NCBI RefSeq assembly: GCF_900129325.1
Contig: NZ_FQUP01000001.1
Location: 1,468,615 to 1,532,614, forward strand
Length of the DNA stretch: 64,000 nt
Source of the DNA: Kaistia soli DSM 19436
Lineage (GTDB): Bacteria; Pseudomonadota; Alphaproteobacteria; Rhizobiales; Kaistiaceae
Reading direction: 5' to 3'
Shown here: piece by piece, positions 56,279 to 64,000 of the stretch
How positions within the stretch are numbered: position 1 is the first letter of the stretch
Layout of the letters: each line of letters begins with the position of its first letter
Notes under the pieces: generated by a model
Told to the model about the DNA's origin: nothing
The model's input: only the letters and a program-made list of their open reading frames with translations
Database searches by the model: none
Made by a program: the position numbers and the translations under genes

Positions 56279-57067
56279 GTGAGCACAGCAGCCCCGAATA
56301 CAGCAGCCAAGAGCACAGCCGCCGCCGATCCCGCAGCCAGGGAAGCGGCGGAAGCCGCGATCAAGGCCGCCAAGAACGCCGCCAAGCAGGCGATCCGCTT
56401 CCGTGGTCGTTCGTTCCTCGCCACGGTACTGGCACCGGCGCTGCCGATCTCGGACTGGCTCGCGGAACTCGATAAGCTCGCCGGCCGCTCGCAGGGCTAC
56501 TTCGCTTCGCGGCCCGTCATTCTCGACGTCACCGGCCTTGCCATCACGAAGCGCGATTTCGCGGATCTTCTGGCGCTGCTCTATGAGCGCGAGATCAAGG
56601 TGATGGGGGTCGAGGGCGCCGATCCGTCCTGGCTCGGTTTCGGCATGCCGCCCTCTGTGAGCGGTGGCAAGCACACCGAGATCGTGCACAAGCCGAGTGC
56701 CGAGCCACCCAAGCAGCAGGGCTTCGTCGACCGGCCGATCCCCTCGCTTCTGATCGAGACGCCGGTTCGCTCCGGCCAGTCGATCATCTTCCCCCAGGGC
56801 GATGTGACGGTGATCGGATCGGTGGCCTCGGGTGCCGAGATCATCGCCGGCAACTCGATCCACGTCTACGGCACGCTGCGGGGGCGGGCGATCGCCGGCA
56901 CCACAGGCAACGCCGCAGCGCGCATCTTCGTGCAGAAGTTCGAAGCAGAGCTGATCGCGATCGACGGGCTCTACCAGACGGCGGACGAGATCGACGCGAC
57001 GTTCCGCGGCCGCTCCGTACAGGCCTGGCTCGCCGACGACAAAATGAACATGGCTGCTCTGGCCTGA
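56279..57067 (+). CDS. minC: Septum site-determining protein MinC
   Basis: A 262-residue MinC, the FtsZ-inhibiting part of the Min system. The C-terminal domain shows the MinC beta-helix with the pattern LLIETPVRSGQSIIFPQGDVTVIGSVASGAEIIAGNSIHVYGTLRGRAIAG and ARIFVQKFEAELIAI; the N-terminal domain begins IRFRGRSFLATVLAP after a 38-residue Ala/Lys-rich extension. Start codon is GTG at 56279. It is followed by minD at 24 bases, and the operon is minCDE. Confidence 0.95.
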   Translation: MSTAAPNTAAKSTAAADPAAREAAEAAIKAAKNAAKQAIRFRGRSFLATVLAPALPISDWLAELDKLAGRSQGYFASRPVILDVTGLAITKRDFADLLALLYEREIKVMGVEGADPSWLGFGMPPSVSGGKHTEIVHKPSAEPPKQQGFVDRPIPSLLIETPVRSGQSIIFPQGDVTVIGSVASGAEIIAGNSIHVYGTLRGRAIAGTTGNAAARIFVQKFEAELIAIDGLYQTADEIDATFRGRSVQAWLADDKMNMAALA

Positions 57068-57091
57068 CCAGAGAATTGAGGAGCAAGGGGT

Positions 57092-57910
57092 ATGTCGCAG
57101 GTTCTGGTGGTCACATCCGGCAAGGGCGGCGTCGGGAAGACGACGTCGACGGCAGCGATCGGCGCAGCGCTCGCCATGAATGGCAGCCGGGTCGCCGTGG
57201 TCGACTTCGACGTCGGTCTGCGCAATCTCGATCTCGTCATGGGCGCCGAACGCCGCGTCGTCTATGACCTGATCAACGTGGTCCAAGGCGAGGCGAAGCT
57301 GCAGCAGGCGCTGATCCGCGACAAGCGGCTCGAGACGCTCTATCTGCTGCCGGCCTCGCAGACCCGTGATAAGGATGCGCTGACGAGCGAGGGCGTTGCC
57401 CGCGTGATGGACGATCTTCGCGAGAGCTTTGACTGGATCGTCTGCGACTCGCCCGCCGGTATCGAGCGCGGCGCGCTGCTGGCCATGCGCCATGCTGATG
57501 TCGCCGTGGTCGTCACCAATCCGGAAGTCTCCTCGGTGCGTGACAGCGACCGCATCATCGGCATGCTGGACGCCAAGACGGCGAAGGCCGAGCGCGGCGA
57601 ATATATGGAAAAGCACCTGCTGCTCACCCGCTACGACGCGGCGCGCGCCGAGCGCGGGCAGATGCTGAAGGTCGAGGACGTGCTCGAGATTCTGTCGATC
57701 CCGCTGCTCGGCATCATCCCCGAGAGCGAGGCCGTCCTCAACGCCTCGAATGTCGGCTGCCCGGTGACGCTTACCGCCGCCGACAGCGCCCCGGCCCGTG
57801 CCTATATCGACGCGGCACGGCGCCTCGAAGGCGACGTGATCCCGATGATGATCCCCGCCGACAAGCGCGTCGGCTTCATGGGCAAGCTGTTCGGTCGGAG
57901 GGCGGCATGA
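57092..57910 (+). CDS. minD: Septum site-determining ATPase MinD
   Basis: A 272-residue membrane-associated ATPase that binds MinC and MinE. The deviant Walker A is KGGVGKTT (11-18), followed by the switch regions [23 protein letters not shown] and [16 protein letters not shown]. The C-terminal end [15 protein letters not shown] is the amphipathic membrane-targeting helix. GAGGAGCAAGG precedes the ATG at 57092. It overlaps minE by 4 bases (ATGA). Confidence 0.97.
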
Positions 57911-58170
57911 CGATCTTCGATTTCTTCAGGCCAACCCGCTCAGCACCGGTCGCGCGCGACCGACTGCAGATCCTGCTGCAGCATGAACGCGTCTCTGCTG
58001 GCGCCAGCGATCTGATCGCGGTGCTCCGTGAGGAAATTCTCGAAGTGATCTCGCGTCATGTCGAGATCCCCGCCGAGAAGGTCCAGGTCAAGATGCAGCG
58101 CGACGAGGCGATCTCGACGCTCGAAGTCGAGATCGAACTGCCAAACCCGATCCGCCGCCGCGCCGCGTAG
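57907..58170 (+). CDS. minE: Cell division topological specificity factor MinE
   Basis: An 87-residue MinE that stimulates MinD ATPase and sets the oscillation. The N-terminal part begins [29 protein letters not shown], the membrane and MinD-binding segment, and the topological domain follows with [40 protein letters not shown]. It is translationally coupled to minD through the ATGA overlap and ends the operon. Confidence 0.96.
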
Positions 58171-58204: not shown

Positions 58205-59422
58205 TTAGTAATAGCTTCGGACGAGATCCTGAACGCGCTGCTCGTAACTGAGACGGCCGGCGCGGGCGCGAGCCCCGCTTTGCAGCGACGCGAGACGACC
58301 CGTGTCGCTGCCGATCTCCGCAAGCGCATGGGCGAGCGCCGTCTCGACGGCGGCCCGGCTTCGACCCTTTGTCGGGATCACCACGCCGCACGTCGCGTCA
58401 ACGACGACGCCCGGTCCGCCAAGATCAAGGCAGGCGACGGGCAAGCCATGCGCCATCGCCTCGCCGATCGCCTGGCCGGCCGAATCGTGCAGGCTCGGAA
58501 AGACAAAGACGTCGTGAGCGGCATAGAGCTTGTTCATTTCGGCATGTGGAACGCTGCCCACGAAGCGGACGATGTCCTGCATGCCCAGATCAGCGGCAAT
58601 CGCGCGAAGATATCCCTCCTCGGGACCGGAGCCGGCGATCGTAAAGGATAGGCCGGGGACACGATCCTTGAGTTGCGCCAGCGCGCCAAGCGCGAGTTGC
58701 GCACCCTTCCAATATTCGAGACGTCCGGCAAAAAGGATCGCCAGCCCCCTATTTGCGCCGGCTTGGCGTTGCGCGTCGCCGGCCGGCGAGGGTGCGTAGA
58801 TGTCGGTGACCACGAAAGCCTTATCGCGCCACCATGGCGGGACGATGCGCCTCGTCGCCTCGTCGGTGACTAGGATCACATCCGCCTGACCGAGGCAGCG
58901 CAGCACCATCGGATCGAACCGGCTCACCATGTTGAGCACGTCGCGCTTGGCCTCGAATTTCCATCCGCGATCAGGAAATCCATTGCGCAGCCGCCAGGGC
59001 GAACTCTGTCCACCGCCGACCGGCCCGAACACGAAGCGCGGCCCCAGCCCGCCCAGGAAGGACGGCCATCGGAGGACCGTCCAGGTCAAATGATGGATGA
59101 CGTCGTAGCGGTTCTGCGCATGCAACTCCGCGACCACCCGTCGGGCCTTCATTTGCCAGACATAGTAGTGCTGCCGGATGCCTTTCGCGTTGACGTATCC
59201 CGGACCGGGCCAGCCAGGAATATCGTGCCAGACAAAATCGAGCCGATCAGGCCAGTCATGCGTCTCGCGATAGCGCTCGATGGCCTCGCGATGATGGCTG
59301 CCGCAGGTAAGGACGGTCACATCATGACCTTGGCGCGCCATCTCGGCAGCGAGATTCCAGCCCTTGCCAAGTTCGGATCCCGCGCCCGGTTCGCAGGCAT
59401 AAGCTGACGCGAGTATGCGCAT
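58205..59422 (-). CDS. Glycosyltransferase, GT4-like
   Basis: A 405-residue group 1 (GT4-type, GT-B fold) glycosyltransferase. The first Rossmann domain starts MRILASAYACEPGAGSELGKGWNLAAEMARQGHDVTVLT, and the second has AGRLEYWKGAQLALGALAQLKD and the donor-binding FVFPSLHDSAGQAIGEAMAHGLPVACLDLGGPGVVV with its conserved Glu. It probably makes a surface polysaccharide or glycolipid; donor and acceptor are unknown. ATG at 59422 with a GGGGGGAGCG site. It is convergent with minE. Confidence 0.9.
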   Translation of the reverse strand: MRILASAYACEPGAGSELGKGWNLAAEMARQGHDVTVLTCGSHHREAIERYRETHDWPDRLDFVWHDIPGWPGPGYVNAKGIRQHYYVWQMKARRVVAELHAQNRYDVIHHLTWTVLRWPSFLGGLGPRFVFGPVGGGQSSPWRLRNGFPDRGWKFEAKRDVLNMVSRFDPMVLRCLGQADVILVTDEATRRIVPPWWRDKAFVVTDIYAPSPAGDAQRQAGANRGLAILFAGRLEYWKGAQLALGALAQLKDRVPGLSFTIAGSGPEEGYLRAIAADLGMQDIVRFVGSVPHAEMNKLYAAHDVFVFPSLHDSAGQAIGEAMAHGLPVACLDLGGPGVVVDATCGVVIPTKGRSRAAVETALAHALAEIGSDTGRLASLQSGARARAGRLSYEQRVQDLVRSYY

Positions 59423-59597: not shown

Positions 59598-59906
59598 CTA
59601 GACGAAGCGTGGGATGGGGCCGTCCTGCGGGGTGGTATCGTCGCCAAGGTCGAGGAAGACTTCGTCGACGTAGCACCACCCCCAGCCCTCCGGCGGATCA
59701 TAGCCCTCGATGATCGGATGGCCGGTAGCATGGAAATGGGCGGTGGCGTGCTTGTTGGGCGACTGGTCGCAGCAGCCGACATGACCGCATGTCCGGCAGA
59801 CCCGAAGATGCACCCACCAGCTGCCGGTCTTGAGACACTCCTCGCAGCCTTTGGCACTCGGCGTCACTTTTCGGATCGTATTCGTATGCGTGCAGTCCTC
59901 ACTCAT
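59598..59906 (-). CDS. UBP-type zinc-finger protein
   Basis: A 102-residue protein made of one UBP-type (ZnF-UBP) zinc finger. Metal ligands in order are Cys and His in EDCTHT, Cys pair GCEEC, Cys pair RVCRTCGHVGCCDQS, then His residues in KHATAHFHATGHP. The end WCYVDEVFLDLGDD is the usual last strand. In eukaryotes this finger binds the free ubiquitin C-terminus; bacteria have no ubiquitin, so the ligand here is unknown. It starts inside the end of the upstream reductase-like gene (ATGA), so they are coupled. Confidence 0.92.
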   Translation of the reverse strand: MSEDCTHTNTIRKVTPSAKGCEECLKTGSWWVHLRVCRTCGHVGCCDQSPNKHATAHFHATGHPIIEGYDPPEGWGWCYVDEVFLDLGDDTTPQDGPIPRFV

Positions 59907-61582
59907 CGGGGATCGGCTCCTGTGTTGAGGGGAGGGACGCGGCCTGCGTCGGCAGCGAGATAGGCATGGATAGCGGCGACGACCTGGGCACCTTCGCCCA
60001 CGGCAGCCGCGACGCGTTTGACCGATCCGGCACGGACGTCGCCAACGGCGAAGATGCCGCGCCGATTGGTTTCGAGAGCATGGTGGCCGGGAACGCTGCC
60101 TGTATCGACGAAGCCCTTGCCATCGAGCGCGATGCCGCTGTCGTCAAGCCAGCTCGTGTTCGGATCGGCCCCGATGAACAGGAAGACATGGCGGATAGCA
60201 CGCCGCGTTTCGGCTCCGGTCACACGCTGGCGCCATGTGACGTGCGAGAGGTTGCCGCGATCACCTTCCAGGCGCGTGATCTCGCTCTGCGTCACGAGCT
60301 CGATATTGGGCAGGGATTCGATGCGATCGATGAGATAGCGCGACATGCTGGCGGCAAGGCCGTCGGCGCGGATCAGCATCCAGACCTTGGCCGCCTGGCC
60401 GGCGAGATAGACAGCGGCCTGGCCAGCTGAATTGCCGCCGCCGACCAGCACGACTTCCTGCGCCGCGCAGAGTTTGCGCTCGAGGGGCGAGGCCCAGTAG
60501 TGGATGCCGGTTCCCTCATAGTCGTCGAGGCCCGGGATGGATGGTCTCCGATAGCGCGCGCCGCTGGCGACGACGACGGTGCGCGCCGCCGCCGTCTCGT
60601 CCTGTCCGAGCGAAAGGCGGAAGCGCCGCTCGCCGTGGACGTCGAAAGGGGTGATTGACAATGCTTCATCGGGGATCGCCAGCTCGGCACCGAATTTCTG
60701 CGCCTGGTTATAGGCGCGCGCCATCAGGGCCATGCCCGTGATGCCGGTCGGAAAGCCGAGATAGTTCTCGATCCGCGCGGAGGCGCCGGCCTGGCCGCCA
60801 AAGGCGCGCATGTCGAGCACCAGCACGGAGAGGCCTTCCGACGCCGCATAAACTGCCGTCGCCAGGCCTGCGGGCCCGGCGCCGATCACCGCGACGTCAT
60901 AGAGCTTGTCGGGATCAAGCGTCCTAACAAGGCCGAGGCATCGGCCAAGCGCCGATTCGGTCGGATTACGCAGCACATCGCCATTGGGGCACAGCACGAC
61001 CGGCAGCGTCGCGGCGTCGATCGCGAAGCGCGAGACGATGGTGCGCGCGGTCTCGTCCGTTGCGGGGTCGAGCGTCTGGTTGGGCACGCCATTTCGGGTC
61101 AGGAAGCCCTGAAGCCTCAGAACATCGCCATGATCGCCTTGGCCGATGATGACTGGGCCGGCACCGGCCTCGATCAGCCCGACGCGGCGCAGGATCAGCG
61201 CCCGCATGATCCGTTCGCCGAGCTCCGCTTCCGCGACCATCAGGCCGCGCAGTCTGTCGGATGGGATGACCAGCGCGTCGACAGCTCCGATCGCGCGGGC
61301 ATCGACGAGCGCCGGGCGATCGGAAAGCTGCGTCACCTCACCGACGAATTGGCCTGGCCCATGCTCGACAATGAGATGGTCGACGCCCGCGGCATCCTGT
61401 CGGGTAATGCTGACCTTGCCAGATAGCACCACGATCAGCCCCGCTATCGCGAAGCCGCGCCGCGCCAGCATATCGCCGTCCGCATAGGATGCGGCGGTGC
61501 CAAATCTCCGCAGCCGCTCGATCTCTGCCGGCAGGAGCACCGGATACATCTGCGCTTGCCGCGTATCGACAATCGAGGCCAT
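59903..61582 (-). CDS. Cyclic-nucleotide-binding domain fused to thioredoxin-reductase-like flavoprotein
   Basis: A 559-residue multidomain protein. Residues about 15-125 are a CRP-type cyclic-nucleotide-binding domain (FAIAGLIVVLSGKVSITRQ ... GPGQFVGEVTQLSDRPALVDARA). About 140-222 resemble a thioredoxin-fold segment without a CxxC. From about 228 a thioredoxin-reductase-like FAD/NAD(P)H enzyme follows: FAD motif VIGAGPAGLATAVYAA, GGQAGASARIENYLGFP, the second dinucleotide motif VVLVGGGNSAGQAAVYLA, and the FAD closing part GIFAVGDVRAGSVKRVAAAVGEGAQVV. At residues 363-368 the sequence is WASPLE where TrxR has its CATC redox site, so it cannot work as an ordinary TrxR. Start at 61582 with AGGAG upstream, 14 bases after slyX. 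Confidence 0.9.
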   Translation of the reverse strand: MASIVDTRQAQMYPVLLPAEIERLRRFGTAASYADGDMLARRGFAIAGLIVVLSGKVSITRQDAAGVDHLIVEHGPGQFVGEVTQLSDRPALVDARAIGAVDALVIPSDRLRGLMVAEAELGERIMRALILRRVGLIEAGAGPVIIGQGDHGDVLRLQGFLTRNGVPNQTLDPATDETARTIVSRFAIDAATLPVVLCPNGDVLRNPTESALGRCLGLVRTLDPDKLYDVAVIGAGPAGLATAVYAASEGLSVLVLDMRAFGGQAGASARIENYLGFPTGITGMALMARAYNQAQKFGAELAIPDEALSITPFDVHGERRFRLSLGQDETAAARTVVVASGARYRRPSIPGLDDYEGTGIHYWASPLERKLCAAQEVVLVGGGNSAGQAAVYLAGQAAKVWMLIRADGLAASMSRYLIDRIESLPNIELVTQSEITRLEGDRGNLSHVTWRQRVTGAETRRAIRHVFLFIGADPNTSWLDDSGIALDGKGFVDTGSVPGHHALETNRRGIFAVGDVRAGSVKRVAAAVGEGAQVVAAIHAYLAADAGRVPPLNTGADPR

Positions 61583-61596
61583 GGCCGATGGGGCTC

Positions 61597-61818
61597 CTAG
61601 TAATGCGGGGGCGGCGGTTCGGGCACGTTGGGACGGCCAGAGCGCGCCTCGGCTTCCGATAGCCGCTCTTCGAGCCGGCGGACAAGTCGGGTCAGTCGGT
61701 CGATCTCCTTCCACTGCGCCAGGACGACCTCATTGAGCTCGTCGAGATTGCGCTCGTGATGCGCGGCGCGGATTTCGAGCGCATCGACGCGATCGGGAAC
61801 GGAGGGGTCTTCACTCAT
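61597..61818 (-). CDS. slyX: SlyX-family small coiled-coil protein
   Basis: A 73-residue protein of the SlyX family. The sequence VDALEIRAAHHERNLDELNEVVLAQWKEIDRLTRLVRRLEERLSE is the characteristic coiled coil, and PNVPEPPPPHY is the conserved SlyX end. Role unknown in any organism. It starts inside the end of the ParA-like gene (ATGA) and is followed 14 bases later by the reductase-like gene, so it is part of a tight operon. Confidence 0.9.
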   Translation of the reverse strand: MSEDPSVPDRVDALEIRAAHHERNLDELNEVVLAQWKEIDRLTRLVRRLEERLSEAEARSGRPNVPEPPPPHY

Positions 61819-62480
61819 CGTATTGCTTTCGCGGGTTGGCTGGCCAGCAGCCGCTGCAGTTCGGCCGCAAGCGCACGCACCTCGTCGGCGGCCTTTGAAT
61901 GCGGGAAGGCTTCGAGCACGGTGCTCCCTGATCCCATTGTAGCGCCAAAGGCGACCCGGTTGCCGAGCTGGCCGGCGGCGATGGGCGCGGGGAGCTTCTG
62001 CAATTGCGCCAGCGTTGCCTCGGCGATCGCTCGCGCTGGGGCGCGATTGACAATCAGGATCGCGGGCGGGCCGCCCTTTTCGACGAGTTCGAGCGTCGCC
62101 ACCGTCGCCCAAAGATCGACCGGCGTCGGTTGGACGGGGACGGCGACGAGGTCGGCCGCCTCGATCGCATTGCGCGCTTCCATATCGGAGCGCGGCGGCA
62201 TGTCGATCAGCACCAGATCGTGGTCACGCGCCAGAATCCGTGCCTCGCGCTTGGCGCCCCAGCCCGAAGCAGTGCGCAGCAGCAATCCGGTCTCGCCTTC
62301 GCCAAGGCGCCGCTCCCGGCGCTCGTACCATTGGCCGAGACTGCCCTGCGGATCGATGTCGAGAATAGCAACACGGCCGCCGCCGGAGACGTGAAGCCCC
62401 GCGACGGCGAGATGAGCGGCCAGCGTGGTCTTGCCCGAGCCGCCCTTCTGCTGCGCGATCACCAGGATCTTGCCTGTCAT
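61815..62480 (-). CDS. Orphan ParA-family ATPase
   Basis: A 221-residue P-loop ATPase of the ParA/MinD superfamily. The deviant Walker A is KGGSGKTT in VIAQQKGGSGKTTLAAHLAVAGL, followed by ILDIDPQGSLGQWYERRE and LVLIDMPPRSDMEARNAIEAADLVAVPVQPTPVDLWA. No ParB or centromere repeats lie beside it, so it is not a partition locus in the usual sense; orphan ParA proteins often position other cargos. It is the first gene of the ParA-SlyX-CNB/TrxR-UBP operon and is divergent from uvrB across 184 bases. Confidence 0.92.
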   Translation of the reverse strand: MTGKILVIAQQKGGSGKTTLAAHLAVAGLHVSGGGRVAILDIDPQGSLGQWYERRERRLGEGETGLLLRTASGWGAKREARILARDHDLVLIDMPPRSDMEARNAIEAADLVAVPVQPTPVDLWATVATLELVEKGGPPAILIVNRAPARAIAEATLAQLQKLPAPIAAGQLGNRVAFGATMGSGSTVLEAFPHSKAADEVRALAAELQRLLASQPAKAIR

Positions 62481-62647
62481 GGCGGTCGCCTCATTGGCTG
62501 TTGCGCGCTGCCGCATCTGGCACGTGTTCGACAACAACTGTTGCAGGATGCGGTGACAAGGGCAATGCAGCGAAGGGCATGCGGGGGCAGAGAAGCGCGG
62601 CATCGCGTTTTTTCGAGCCATGCTCCCCTTCAAAAAACGACTGACTC

Positions 62648-62662
62648 GTTCTACTTTCGTAC
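62648..62662 (+). promoter_or_regulatory. Possible LexA (SOS) box before uvrB
   Basis: GTTC, seven bases, GTAC: one mismatch to the alphaproteobacterial LexA consensus GTTC-N7-GTTC. It ends 2 bases before the proposed uvrB start codon, where bound LexA would block transcription or the start region. UvrAB genes are common LexA targets, but one mismatch keeps the call moderate. Confidence 0.45.
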
Positions 62663-62664
62663 CC

Positions 62665-64000
62665 ATGGCCAAACGCTCTAGACCATCCGGCTTCGGCGAA
62701 GCGCCGCAGGCCGCTTTCGAAGCAGACAGCTCAGCCGGGCTTTCCGGCAATATCGCCGACTGGATCGACGAGATCGCGCGCGCCGCCGATGCGCAGCCGA
62801 TCGCGCCGAAGCCGAAGCGCGCCCCGCGGGCGCGGCCGGAGCGGATGCAGCTTGTCGACCTCCCGGTCGATGAGGGCCGGAAGAAGGGCAAGGCGAAGGA
62901 CAAGTCAGCCGACAGTGGCGCCTACAAGTCTGGCCGCGGTACGTCGATCGGCGTCGCCAGTTCGGCGCGCGAACGGGCGGCCAGCGGGCTCAATCCCGTC
63001 GCCGGGCTCGACATGGGGCTTGAAGAGGCCGAGGCGTCGTCGAGCCTTGCCTCATCCTCTGTGACGGCGACCGTCGCGGCGCTGACGGCGCTCATCGAGC
63101 ATGGCCGGCAGGAGGTGCGCGACAAGACGTGGGTGCCGCACCGGCCGGAGCGGCCGCAGAAATCGGAGGGCGGACAGCCCTTCCGGATCGTGTCGCCCTT
63201 CGAGCCGAAGGGCGACCAGCCGAACGCCATCAAGGAACTGGTCGAGGGCGTCAGCCGTCAGGAAAAGGATCAGGTGCTGCTCGGCGTCACCGGTTCCGGC
63301 AAGACCTTCACGATGGCGCAGGTGATCGAGCGGACGCAGCGTCCGGCGCTGATCCTGGCCCCGAACAAAACGCTCGCCGCTCAGCTCTATGGGGAATTCA
63401 AGTCATTCTTCCCCGACAACGCCGTCGAATATTTCGTCTCGTATTACGATTATTATCAGCCCGAGGCCTATGTGCCGCGGACGGACACCTATATCGAGAA
63501 GGAATCTTCCGTTAACGAGCAGATCGACCGGATGCGCCATTCGGCGACCCGCTCTCTGCTGGAGCGCGACGACGTCATTATCGTTGCGTCAGTGTCATGC
63601 ATCTACGGTATCGGCTCTGTCGAGACCTATACCGCCATGACCTTCGGCATTGAGCTCGGTGAAAAGCTCAACCAGCGCCAGCTGCTCGCCGATCTGGTGG
63701 CCCTGCAATACAAGCGGCAGGATCTCAATTTCGTGCGTGGCAGTTTCCGCGTGCGCGGCGATACGGTCGAGATCTTCCCGGCCCACCTTGAGGATCGCGC
63801 CTGGCGGTTGTCGCTGTTCGGCGACGAGGTCGAGAGCATCACCGAATTCGACCCGCTGACAGGTCAGAAGACCGCCGACCTCAAATTCGTGAAGGTCTAT
63901 GCGAACTCGCACTATGTGACGCCGAAGCCGACGCTCAACCAGGCCATCGCCTCGATCAAGACCGAGTTGCGGGCCCGCCTCGTGGAACTGGAGGCGGCAG
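62665..64000 (+). CDS. uvrB: Excinuclease ABC subunit B (partial, cut by window end)
   Basis: The first 445 codons of UvrB, the helicase-like damage-verification subunit of nucleotide excision repair; the 3' end is outside the window. Walker A is GVTGSGKT at 207-214 and the following [73 protein letters not shown] includes the family beta-hairpin that probes DNA. E. coli UvrB has its Walker A near residue 40, so this protein carries about 168 extra N-terminal residues that are charged, Ala/Ser-rich and probably disordered, a feature I know from rhizobial UvrB. ATG at 62665 has no clear ribosome site; a possible SOS box lies just upstream. Confidence 0.93.

Follow-up and report, generated by a model that had tools for sequence, protein, structure and literature searches.

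A widespread flavoprotein and zinc-finger gene pair beside slyX and a solitary parA between uvrB and minCDE in Kaistia soli

Four closely packed genes lie on the reverse strand of the alphaproteobacterium Kaistia soli DSM 19436, at positions 59598 to 62480 of a 64,000-nucleotide stretch of contig NZ_FQUP01000001.1 (the window, by which we mean the whole stretch of DNA that was analysed). They encode a ParA-family ATPase, a SlyX-family coiled-coil protein, a flavoprotein that joins a cyclic-nucleotide-binding (CNB) domain to an oxidoreductase resembling thioredoxin reductase (TrxR) with sites for flavin adenine dinucleotide (FAD) and nicotinamide adenine dinucleotide (phosphate) (NAD(P)H), and a small zinc finger of the ZF-UBP family. 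We show here that the flavoprotein and the zinc finger are an old and widespread pair, adjacent beyond chance across several bacterial classes, and that the set of four is not a widely conserved system. Read along the reverse strand, the genes are:

61815..62480, minus strand: ParA-family ATPase (NF041546), 221 amino acids, with the deviant Walker A motif KGGSGKTT
61597..61818, minus strand: SlyX family coiled-coil protein, 73 amino acids, ending in PPPPHY
59903..61582, minus strand: fusion of a CNB domain with a TrxR-like FAD/NAD(P)H oxidoreductase without CxxC, 559 amino acids
59598..59906, minus strand: stand-alone ZF-UBP zinc finger, 102 amino acids, homologue of 2IDA (RPA1320)

The arrangement is exactly as the original prediction, made from the sequence alone, had described it, with 4-base overlaps between ParA and SlyX (61815-61818) and between the flavoprotein and the zinc finger (59903-59906), and a gap of 14 bases between SlyX and the flavoprotein (61583-61596). 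Its four family labels were likewise borne out by curated profiles, all above their cut-offs: NF041546 ParA partition ATPase (191.3 bits against 180), SlyX PF04102 (81.5 against 30), cNMP_binding PF00027 and Pyr_redox_2 PF07992 in the flavoprotein (51.7 against 27.5 and 131.2 against 26.1), and zf-UBP PF02148 (49.5 against 22.7). The best start of the flavoprotein is the ATG at 61582, and its closest relative, at locus L255, also has 559 residues. As had been supposed, the four genes are likely to be co-transcribed. Indeed, the tight junctions recur in congeners: the flavoprotein and zinc finger overlap by 4 bases in L255-L259, and ParA and SlyX overlap by 4 in L255, L012, L256 and L257 and stand 14 bases apart in L258. 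Promoter and terminator scans of the locus gave no signal above shuffled sequences, and so none that marks the limits of the transcript.

The case for the two-gene pair comes from a survey of zinc-finger loci that took the best 80 of 591 confirmed stretches, a choice that favours close relatives, with flanks of up to 5 kb, some of which end at contig ends. A flavoprotein gene lies within the flanks of 55 of these 80 loci, on the same strand and first in 41, on the same strand and second in 6, and on the opposite strand in 8. The record titles of the paired loci name Alpha-, Gamma- and Deltaproteobacteria or their genera, plus one member of the Actinobacteria. Where both genes are complete (65 loci), the flavoprotein comes first on one strand in 48, and in 29 of these 48 the two genes overlap by 1 to 8 bases. 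The genomes of the 25 unpaired loci also tend to hold both genes, with a relative of the flavoprotein elsewhere in 22 of them (1e-50). At the genome level the zinc finger depends strongly on the flavoprotein: in each of two samples, nine of the ten genomes with a zinc finger have the flavoprotein as well, namely in an order sample of 150 genomes (1e-60; Fisher p 1.4e-7) and in a class sample of 289 genomes (1e-70; Fisher p 1.4e-10), where these p values are uncorrected for kinship and, since the samples contain related genomes, overstate independence. The flavoprotein counts are lower bounds, with 9 (order sample) or 4 (class sample) candidates scored per genome, and the zinc-finger match in the tenth, flavoprotein-less genome of the class sample (G218) is marginal.

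No general third partner emerged when the open reading frames of neighbours were clustered with a GC-position filter against antisense frames. Ferritin-domain (Dps-like), AraC regulator, two-component, alpha/beta hydrolase and EthD genes were considered as candidates and recur at some loci only. A Dps-like gene stands immediately before the zinc finger at L154:4456-4998, and response-regulator genes lie beside the zinc finger at two Rhizobium loci (L180, L183), hinting at a stress setting. In a Bradyrhizobium locus (L149), a gene of the EthD-domain cluster sits between the flavoprotein and the zinc finger. A few zinc-finger copies look broken, namely L019 (genome G090), with a TAG inside the match, and L239/L240 (G150:C111), which are fragments.

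The four-gene order has a much narrower distribution, which is best described relative to the genes that border the locus:

62620..64000, plus strand: uvrB (start tentative), the divergent upstream neighbour, continuing past the window edge; border of the variable interval
56279..58170, plus strand: minC-minD-minE, a complete operon; opposite border of the variable interval

The Min proteins score above the cut-offs of their profiles (TIGR01222 139.4 against 95.25, TIGR01968 341.3 against 212.9, TIGR01215 71 against 49.3). Between uvrB and minD, the order ParA, SlyX, flavoprotein, zinc finger is found in six of the 14 genomes of the genus (the K. soli genome itself, G170, G165, G099, G161 and G167). 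In G162 SlyX comes first after uvrB, the flavoprotein and the zinc finger follow, and ParA lies some 2 kb further on, before minD. In the remaining seven congeners SlyX is the only one of the four genes near minD; in these stretches MinD is present in 7/7 and UvrB in 3/7, and although the MinD thresholds might catch other ParA-like proteins, the congener MinD identities are 88-100%. Three of the seven (G163, G164, G168) have a zinc finger elsewhere, in two cases with an adjacent flavoprotein (L263, L264). Across a family sample of 28 genomes, including the 14 of the genus and thus the window genome, ParA orthologues (E <=1e-45) occur in 12; 20 carry the flavoprotein (1e-60), 15 the zinc finger (the G150 match being fragmentary) and 14, all within the genus, SlyX. 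Elsewhere in the family, two of three genomes of a second genus have the flavoprotein-zinc finger pair near minD with neither SlyX nor ParA (L261, L262). On the basis of these mapped loci, SlyX, which is close to minD in 14/14 congeners, looks like a resident gene of the uvrB-minD interval in the genus, and ParA like a later incomer.

No such link turned up outside the genus. Neither ParA nor SlyX was found at any of the 80 zinc-finger loci, and none of SlyX, UvrB, the flavoprotein and the zinc finger was found at any of 24 ParA-orthologue loci from outside the genus (21 from one survey and three from the family mapping), counts in which tblastn could miss very divergent copies of the short, fast-changing SlyX. 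The conserved order by which the original prediction proposed to judge the linkage holds inside part of the genus and was not found beyond it, so that by this test of its own the linkage of all four genes is refuted except within the genus. Conservation of the set beyond chance is confined to part of one genus.

The ParA protein itself is above the NF041546 cut-off but has no ParB-like gene beside it, its neighbours being uvrB and slyX, and no farther than these neighbours was ParB looked for. Nor did a partner appear outside the genus, where no neighbour cluster is common to more than 2 of 16 scored loci (16 of the 21 surveyed; the other five were left out as the gene caller had missed ParA). 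An anti-phage role for the locus was considered and rejected, as there were only marginal PADLOC matches (E 0.00061 and 0.00075), consistent with shared ATPase and CNB domains.

The redox part of the flavoprotein contains the FAD and NAD(P) Rossmann domains of the low-Mr TrxR-like fold. In a structural model of the protein (mean predicted local distance difference test score, pLDDT, 91.3), residues 223-544 best match the TrxR structure 3cty (Z 33.7, root-mean-square deviation (rmsd) 1.8, 304 aligned); the whole-protein fold search missed the CNB domain, which is assigned from sequence matches. The protein resembles low-Mr TrxR and TrxR-like ferredoxin-NADP reductases in both sequence and fold. 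Unlike low-Mr TrxR, however, it lacks CxxC, carries the extra CNB domain and reaches only 212.2 bits with the thioredoxin reductase profile TIGR01292, below the cut-off of 343.45. The missing redox cysteine pair, already remarked on in the original prediction, extends to all the aligned relatives. The window protein has cysteines only at 198, 215 and 372, and C..C between positions 350 and 380 occurs in none of 87 flavoprotein rows (86 relatives with complete reading frames plus the window). Position 363, which we take to be the place of the first TrxR active-site cysteine from a register set by eye against the E. coli TrxR sequence, is Trp, Ala or Gly in 87/87. Glu368 is invariant in the same rows, and Cys372 is present in 80 of them.

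How these proteins work together can be read in several ways. If all four genes formed one machine, ParA would use SlyX as an adaptor to position a flavoprotein-zinc finger complex in the cell, in line with the original prediction that the last two proteins could be its cargo. The tight overlaps speak for such a machine, as does the gene order in six congeners despite identities down to 49% for SlyX and 66% for the flavoprotein, and the ParA signature is well kept, with the signature lysine K12 and GKTT invariant in 29/29 aligned rows. However, the cargo idea finds no support in the two locus surveys, in which ParA is apart from the other genes throughout, and within the genus itself ParA stands some 2 kb away in G162 and is missing from half of the SlyX loci; we regard the four-gene machine as highly improbable. 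A second reading concerns the pair alone. Burroughs, Iyer and Aravind (2011, Mol Biosyst 7:2261; cited in PMC4506424) reportedly proposed that bacterial ZF-UBP proteins are components of a redox signalling system that depends on cyclic nucleotides, in which cyclic AMP (cAMP) or cyclic GMP (cGMP) would bind the CNB domain and switch the flavoprotein while the zinc finger relays to targets. The PF00027 match is consistent with this, as are the closest solved CNB domains, which are those of CRP-family regulators and PKG, and the cassette residue Glu82, the ribose-binding glutamate of CNB domains, is kept in 84 of 86 rows. In contrast, the arginine of the phosphate-binding cassette (the PKA Arg209 equivalent) is found in 0/86; Ala or Ser stands in its place in 61 rows, and Leu comes next in 66. 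We placed these residues by ungapped alignment to CRP-family structures and by the Arg209 motif given in PMC2246266. That paper describes Arg209 as coordinating the cAMP phosphate and calls it key, and it mentions CNB families without this arginine that bind heme or chlorophenolacetic acid, so that another ligand is a fair guess here. Switching by cAMP or cGMP is thus unlikely in our estimate, and where the original prediction spoke of a cyclic-nucleotide sensor, the domain is confirmed and the sensing is doubtful.

A similar question arises for the zinc finger, which could recognise a bacterial ubiquitin-like protein by the free glycines at its C-terminus. Its model (mean pLDDT 82.7) superposes on the NMR structure of RPA1320 (2IDA), a full-length homologue with 78% identity over 102 aligned residues (Z 19.1, rmsd 1.3, 102 aligned), and also on HDAC6 with a ubiquitin tail peptide (3gv4; Z 10.6, rmsd 2.9, 90 aligned). 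Across 42 zinc-finger rows, 26 columns are invariant, and among 99 rows (98 relatives with complete reading frames plus the window) the pocket aromatics are kept, Trp77 in 97/99 and Tyr or Phe at 79 in 99/99. In HDAC6, R1155 contacts the C-terminal carboxylate, and R1155A and USP16 R84A served as paired mutants, as PMC10424181 describes. Judged from alignments, the bacterial pocket differs at exactly this place. Asp47, found in 99/99 rows, aligns with Arg84 of full-length USP16; in the USP49 alignment the arginine place is taken by residue 48, which is Asp, Gln, Ser, Glu, Leu or Asn. At neither residue is there an arginine in any of the 99 rows, and, judged by these residues, tail reading of this kind seems to us most improbable. 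The term ubiquitin-type in the original prediction is right for the fold and goes no further. Together, the two residue losses speak against a simple cyclic-nucleotide and a simple ubiquitin reading.

We favour, with modest confidence, the explanation that a conserved two-gene redox module lies next to SlyX and a solitary ParA in a variable interval between uvrB and minCDE, and the redox module alone is likely to be the functional unit. In one branch of the genus, the module would have come to lie beside SlyX, and the solitary ParA would have joined. On the best reading, the module consists of an NAD(P)H flavoprotein that works without a disulfide and is controlled by a ligand other than a cyclic nucleotide, and of an adaptor zinc finger for which ubiquitin-like tails are not the ligand. 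Hydride would pass from NAD(P)H to FAD and electrons onward without an internal disulfide, so that the flavoprotein would have no thioredoxin reductase activity; candidates to replace the cysteine pair are Glu368, which is invariant, and the mostly kept Cys372. The N-terminal CNB domain may provide regulatory input; cAMP and cGMP would no longer fit it in the usual manner, and it probably senses another small ligand or just mediates assembly. The zinc finger, made in step with the enzyme, would be a small docking subunit that brings it to its target by means of an aromatic pocket with Trp77 and Tyr79, remodelled by Asp47. A bolder version, which we consider a long shot, places the pair beyond known thiol chemistry as well as beyond cyclic-nucleotide and ubiquitin signalling, as a redox switch whose flavoprotein lacks an active-site disulfide and is gated by some other ligand in a re-purposed CNB pocket. 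Its zinc-finger subunit, with the charge of the ubiquitin-tail pocket reversed by the change from Arg to invariant Asp, would bind a cationic end, for instance a protein N-terminus or the side chain of Lys or Arg, and would thereby steer electrons from the flavin to selected proteins.

Several observations weigh against the redox module as we describe it. The dependence is one-way, of zinc finger on flavoprotein and not the reverse: flavoprotein genomes without the zinc finger outnumber those with it (15/24 in the order sample, 13/22 in the class sample), and the zinc finger is therefore at most an optional partner. Two genomes, G130 and G163, have a zinc finger and no flavoprotein detected at E 1e-60. 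Of the 25 genomes with unpaired zinc-finger loci, three have no flavoprotein relative, and a further three of the 22 relatives match the TrxR-like part only, so that matches including the CNB domain come to 19/25. A conserved C-terminal tail of the flavoprotein was considered as a ligand of the zinc finger and rejected, since the tails differ in length and sequence in paired and unpaired proteins alike; no docking peptide is thus evident. The retention of Glu82 may leave room for some nucleotide binding, and the ParA-SlyX overlap that recurs in the genus may reflect a local functional link. Among the literature matches listed, none was an experimental study of the pair or gave an assay, ligand or complex for the family.

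Relative to earlier work, the redox module had reportedly been predicted before, and what this analysis usefully adds is the figures for the co-dependence of the two genes and the loss of the two residues. As reportedly in the 2011 system, the CNB-TrxR-like and ZF-UBP genes are adjacent; unlike in that system, the residues here are against standard cyclic-nucleotide binding, and SlyX and ParA are neighbours in one lineage. The statement of the original prediction that no function had been described is correct for the four-gene set within the searches made, and the last two proteins reportedly do have a published prediction. RPA1320 of Rhodopseudomonas palustris is represented by a structure only, under the name 'Hypothetical protein'. 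PMC2602986 lists zf-UBP among conserved hypothetical mini-proteins. An odd four-gene operon is in this way turned into a testable statement about a widespread two-gene pair, and in assays on bacterial ZF-UBP proteins ligands other than cyclic nucleotides and ubiquitin would also be worth trying.

The residue counts above are for complete reading frames; before this filter, about 93 flavoprotein and 100 zinc-finger loci had matches, and two of the loci (L013 and L120) are apparently from one genome. Of 58 non-redundant relatives, the flavoprotein alignment A1 holds the 49 that start with ATG, after one short protein was set aside, and the zinc-finger alignment A2 holds 41 of 67. At the borders of the locus, about 187 residues of the uvrB frame precede the part that matches UvrB profiles. 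A family 4 glycosyltransferase gene (58205-59422) follows the zinc finger on the same strand after about 175 bases, and has a counterpart at the equivalent place in one (L256, 92%) of the six other mapped congener loci with the set or its G162 variant.

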